Origin: Palaeococcus ferrophilus DSM 13482
GTDB taxonomy: Archaea > Methanobacteriota_B > Thermococci > Thermococcales > Thermococcaceae
DNA length: 64,000 nucleotides
Assembly (NCBI RefSeq): GCF_000966265.1
Contig: NZ_LANF01000013.1
Span: 1 to 64,000, forward strand
Reading direction: 5' to 3'
The notes below the pieces were generated by a model. The model saw nothing but the letters and a program-made list of their open reading frames with translations, was not told the DNA's origin and did not search any database. This document shows, in pieces, positions 22,560-23,593 of the stretch (positions within the stretch are counted from its first letter, which is position 1; every line of letters begins with the position of its first letter). The position numbers and the translations under genes are program-made.

Positions 22560-23193
22560 ATGCCCCGCTTAACCCTCGGAGGGAGGGAAATTGAATACGA
22601 GCTCGTGCTCAGAAACGTCCGCTACGTCAGGATTAGCCTCCTCCCCGATGGGCGGCTGAGGGTTGTCTCGCCCACGGCCGATGTTGAGCCTTTTCTCCTT
22701 AAAAAACGCCGCTGGATACTCGGAAGACTGGCCCTCCTTGAGGAGGCCCGGGTGGATGGCTTTCCCTACTTCGGGGAGTTCCTCAACGAGCCGCCTGCTC
22801 GGGGTGGTGAACTTGAGACGCTCTTAAGGAAGGAACTCAGAAAAACGGTTATGCCACTCGTGGTGAAGAGGAGCGCTGATTTCAACGTTTCTCCAGGAAG
22901 GGTTTACATCCGAAAAGCCCGGAGCAGGTGGGGGAGCGCTTCCTCCAGGGGAAACGTCAGCTTCAGCCTCGCGCTCGCCGCCCTGCCCTTGGAGATTATA
23001 GACTACGTGGTGACCCACGAGGTGGCCCACCTCAGGCATATGAACCACTCCCGGGCATTCTGGTCCCTCGTTGCGAGCGTGCACCCCGACTGGAGGGAGA
23101 AGCGGAAGGAACTCAAAAAATGGTGGGCGGTTGTGAGCTTAAACGACGTGTGGCGGGAACTCCTCACTCCAGGGGGGGAGCCCTCACCTATGA
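22560..23193 (+). pseudogene. YgjP-type zinc metallopeptidase (DUF45), reading frame disturbed near the 3' end
   Basis: Predicted zinc-dependent metallopeptidase, SprT/wss1-like clan. It has the family motifs RSRWGS (121-126), the zinc helix THEVAHL (HEVAH 153-157) and a third ligand His163 in MNHSRAFW. As read, the frame does not stop where the family ends but continues to 23366 into the opposite gene. Deleting one G from the run of seven at 23172-23178 brings TGA at 23191-23193 into frame and gives a normal 210-residue protein ending TPGGSPHL. Start is uncertain: ATG at 22509 has AGGAGAG upstream; ATG at 22560 fits the family N-terminus and a TATA-like AAACTTATTTA 25 bases upstream (leaderless). 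The catalytic domain is intact either way, so pseudogene status is only formal. Confidence 0.7.
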
Positions 23194-23593
23194 GGTGCAT
23201 CACGACCTTCCTGTGCCGGGGCCTCACGTCCAGCTCCACGAAGAATATCTGCTGCCATATCCCCTTCACCAGCTTCCCCTTTATGACGGGAAGCGCCAGT
23301 GACGGCCCGAGGAGACTCGCCCTCAGGTGGGAGTGGGCGTTGTTGTCTATTATGTCGTGCCGGTAGCCCTTACCCTTGGGTATCAGCTCCTCCATCATGC
23401 GCTTGAAGTCCTCCACAAGGCCATCCTCGTTCTCCAGGGCAACCACCGCCCCCGTGGCCCCTGGAACGAATATAAGCACGTGCCCATCGCGAACGCCGGC
23501 CCTCTCCACGAAGCGCTCCACCTCATCCGTGATGTCAACCATGTCAATCTCACCCTTCGTGGTGAAGTGCAGCTCCTCAATCACCACCTTCAT
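23164..23593 (-). pseudogene. YjbQ / UPF0047 family protein, reading frame disturbed near the 3' end
   Basis: Family TIGR00149, described as a secondary thiamine-phosphate synthase in Escherichia coli. Expected core is complete: VPGATGAVVALENEDG (43-58), the histidine cluster DNNAHSHLRASLLGPS (83-98) and GIWQQIFFVELD (111-122), ending KVVMHLIGE. As read the frame runs on to 23003 with about 65 residues that are only the antisense of the YgjP gene. Removing one base of the seven-G run (C on this strand) gives GEGSPLE and TGA, a 142-residue protein of normal length. The ATG at 23593 follows GGAGGG; the frame opens at 23626 but the family starts here. It is third in a minus-strand operon headed by a ThiN-domain regulator. 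Confidence 0.75.

Follow-up and report, generated by a model that had tools for sequence, protein, structure and literature searches.

The window analyzed here, a stretch of 64,000 nucleotides from Palaeococcus ferrophilus DSM 13482 (contig NZ_LANF01000013.1, positions 1 to 64,000), contains two convergent genes whose reading frames, as deposited, run through each other. On the plus strand, a YgjP-like metallopeptidase gene (PF01863, E-value 9.9e-40, 137.2 bits with a gathering cut-off of 26) is open from 22560 to 23366 and would encode 268 amino acids. On the minus strand, a gene of the YjbQ (UPF0047) family reads from its start at 23593 to 23003 and would encode 196 amino acids. Its assignment rests on a full-model match to PF01894 and TIGR00149 (E-values 3.8e-35 and 7e-36; 122.9 bits with a cut-off of 67.75; model positions 5-132 of 132). 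The two frames share 364 bases, as the original prediction had stated. Seven consecutive G residues, read directly from the sequence, are located in this overlap at positions 23172-23178 (c-a-ggggggg-a, 23170-23179).

The original prediction attributed the unusual ends of both genes to this run and proposed that deletion of a single G would restore them. The run, its coordinates and both predicted TGA stops were confirmed when the sequence was read again with one G deleted. In the six-G version, YgjP ends at the TGA at 23191-23193 with TPGGSPHL (gene 22560-23193, plus strand, 210 amino acids) and YjbQ ends at the TGA at 23164-23166 with GEGSPLE (gene 23164-23593, minus strand, 142 amino acids). 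These are probably the true stops, and they would leave a tail-to-tail overlap of 29 bases.

It had also been argued that one base thus repairs two genes. Deletion of one G does restore both, but a scan of single-base changes showed that loss of any base in 23167-23190 (24 positions) yields the same 210 and 142 amino acids. In convergent genes with overlapping stops, one insertion or deletion between the stops breaks both frames, and the double repair therefore follows from the geometry and is not special evidence. Within 23167-23190, the seven-G run is the place most prone to error, and thus the obvious site for one.

The extra tails beyond the predicted stops look like noise. The YgjP tail (23194-23366, plus strand) reads the YjbQ gene antisense in a shifted frame, and the YjbQ tail (23003-23163, minus strand) reads the YgjP gene in the same manner. 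With a codon model trained on the P. ferrophilus genome itself, the YgjP tail had a log-odds score of -9.9, versus +24.2 for YjbQ over the same stretch, and the YjbQ tail scored -4.2, versus +10.4 for YgjP. A frame model switched from YgjP to YjbQ at 23179/23180, and used neither tail.

The tails were also described as unlike the respective families, and comparison with other genomes bears this out. We searched for relatives in genome contigs and in 94 genomes of the family, and found a long YgjP or YjbQ tail in none of them; tails common to the homologues would have spoken against a surplus base. Thermococcaceae orthologues of YgjP have 202-226 amino acids, and their C-terminal homology stops at RELL, as it does in P. 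ferrophilus. Orthologues of YjbQ (63-75% identical) have 137 amino acids, except for one with 138 and the P. pacificus protein with 143. A change of one base in run length is thus enough to bring both proteins back to family length.

The arrangement expected with six G is also found in relatives. In seven genomes of a Pyrococcus-like genus, YgjP and YjbQ are convergent and overlap by 14-47 bases (26 bases in G003, G004, G006, G009 and G010, 14 in G008 and 47 in G005), and the 29-base overlap would therefore be a natural arrangement. These pairs have the same genes in the same orientation as in P. ferrophilus and a similarly short overlap once one G is removed, but they end normally as deposited, whereas the P. 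ferrophilus genes overlap by 364 bases unless this G is removed. Long overlaps as a shared trait of related genomes were considered and rejected, because orthologues that are likewise convergent have their stops where the family normally has them. The run itself is not conserved at this site: no run of seven G was found in the Pyrococcus-like overlaps, and in P. pacificus the two genes are separated by a gap of 748 bases.

We then asked how homopolymer runs behave elsewhere in the P. ferrophilus draft assembly (2,206,431 bases in 23 contigs), in which a search for seven consecutive G gives 59 forward and 62 reverse matches. Stretches around about 90 such runs were sampled, 304 kb in total including the window. 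Frame switches were sought with a frame model that allows gaps, and doubtful cases were read by eye. Among 73 coding G or C runs of at least seven, five break a gene exactly at the run, a count from a model that can miss breaks near gene ends; all five genes read on if the run has six residues. In addition to the run at 23172 in the window, these are L148:4995, L149:1477, L117:1544 and L178:1508 (the L numbers designate sampled stretches). The other 68 runs are in frame. None of the 685 coding G or C runs of five or six in the sampled stretches was broken (0/108 of six, 0/577 of five), although the sample was picked for runs of seven G and rates for other run types derive from neighboring sequence. 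The difference between runs of at least seven and runs of five and six together is significant (Fisher p = 7e-6; p = 8e-5 if the run in the window is left out), as is that with runs of six alone (p = 0.01). A run of six A in L162 has one A in excess, and every break detected in the sample was +1.

Three further candidates were rejected on reading: at L131:1855 the gene end is genuine with seven G in the run, L179:1908 is a gene overlap, and L180:3658 a case of two genes. Longer noncoding runs also occur in the genome, with ten C at L115:1503 and nine C at L173:1483, the latter near a contig end.

For all five broken genes outside the window, both halves map to a single unbroken frame in relatives. 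The most informative is the gene for dolichol-phosphate mannose (DPM) synthase, which is split at L148:4995-5001 (G000:C11:299994-300000) and whole with six G. Its two halves match residues 23-156 (E-value 2e-64) and 160-371 (E-value 1e-93) of PDB entry 5MLZ. The gene is single copy in P. ferrophilus and was found in 85 of the 94 family genomes. Among those listed, the frames have about 350 amino acids or more, with the exceptions of P. ferrophilus (238) and one copy that lies at the edge of a contig (232). A living strain is unlikely to have lost DPM synthase along with the other broken genes. The latter encode a DUF3887-like membrane protein (L149), an uncharacterized protein (L117) and a group 1 glycosyltransferase (L178), each with one base in excess at the run, and a DUF2139 protein (L162, six-A run at about position 932 (-)). 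In genome coordinates, the three runs of seven G or C other than those in the window and in the DPM synthase gene are at G000:C11:312176, C4:136143 and C18:41807.

Comparison with the frames of all relatives shows one base in excess at the run in the window, and a like excess at other runs. We infer that this excess is a fault of the assembly and that the cells lack it. With a probability of about 0.8, the true run at 23172 has six G, and the seventh is a recurrent homopolymer overcall of the draft. In the organism, the convergent genes would then overlap tail to tail by an unremarkable 29 bases. In the assembly, one surplus G in the brief interval from one stop to the other would shift both frames beyond them, and each would run antisense through the other gene. 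The original prediction had left the choice between an assembly error and a slipped run. Its claim of one base too many is strongly supported, and error is favored because four other runs of seven G or C, including the one in the single-copy DPM synthase gene, and one run of six A carry the same +1 defect. Its suggestion that slippage could vary both proteins finds no support, since most coding runs of seven G leave their gene in frame, relatives do not conserve the site, and geometry accounts for the double effect.

Alternatively, the seventh G could be real, due to a slipped-strand +1 mutation in the sequenced culture or strain that lengthened both proteins without purpose. Runs of G are natural slippage sites, and a shared mutational bias could also explain why all observed breaks are +1. 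Moreover, slippage in vitro is reported for PolB and PolD of Pyrococcus abyssi on hairpin templates that carry direct repeats (PMC4134008), and real slippage by archaeal replicative polymerases is thus not impossible. We nevertheless consider such a mutation improbable, as at least five other genes, including the family-conserved DPM synthase gene, would have to be broken likewise in the same culture. Much less probable still is a recoding or variable site, at which slippage of polymerase or ribosome would produce normal as well as long proteins, both from this pair and from the other broken genes. Several unrelated genes are indeed broken at runs of seven and each could be restored by a one-base slip, but efficient slippage would damage the other 68 coding runs sampled, which are in frame, the relatives have no conserved site, and the run of six A shares the defect. 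We also give very little credence to the idea that P. ferrophilus truly carries surplus bases at several runs of seven G in unrelated genes, including that in the single-copy DPM synthase gene, because of lax control of run length, and obtains intact proteins by transcriptional or ribosomal slippage. Least credible of all are genuine long overlapping frames with functional tails. Both frames are open as deposited, but neither tail occurs in any relative, both score negative as coding sequence, and convergent orthologues stop where expected.

Homopolymer-length errors of the pyrosequencing type are known from draft assemblies, where they cause one-base frame breaks at the longest homopolymers in unrelated genes. 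The breaks reported here are similar, as they fall at the longest homopolymers, affect unrelated genes and are mended by changing the run length by one. They differ in that only +1 errors were seen in the sample; no published account of how the P. ferrophilus genome was sequenced was found in a literature search. Phase-variable poly-G tracts of bacterial contingency genes are another point of comparison, since there, too, the length of a coding G run sets the frame. Unlike those tracts, the run in the window has only seven G, affects neither a surface nor a restriction gene, and belongs to a class of runs that are mostly in frame. A double-gene switch at this run is not supported, and the feature is ordinary.

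The main consequence of an overcall would be for annotation. Neither the YgjP nor the YjbQ tail should be taken for a domain, and other genes of the draft with runs of seven G or C, DPM synthase first among them, may be recorded as broken in error. Surplus bases that proved real would point to lax control of run length or to recoding in a hyperthermophile, which can be tested directly.

The neighborhood of the two genes may itself have changed. YgjP and YjbQ are also convergent in P. pacificus and in many Thermococcus-like genomes, but there they lie 748-835 bases apart (1546 in one case). The P. pacificus gap contains a gene for a metallo-beta-lactamase-fold protein (L111:1103-1849), which was not found in the P. 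ferrophilus genome by a search that does find the P. pacificus copy. The intervening gene thus appears to have been lost in P. ferrophilus, and its loss would have brought the ends of YgjP and YjbQ together.
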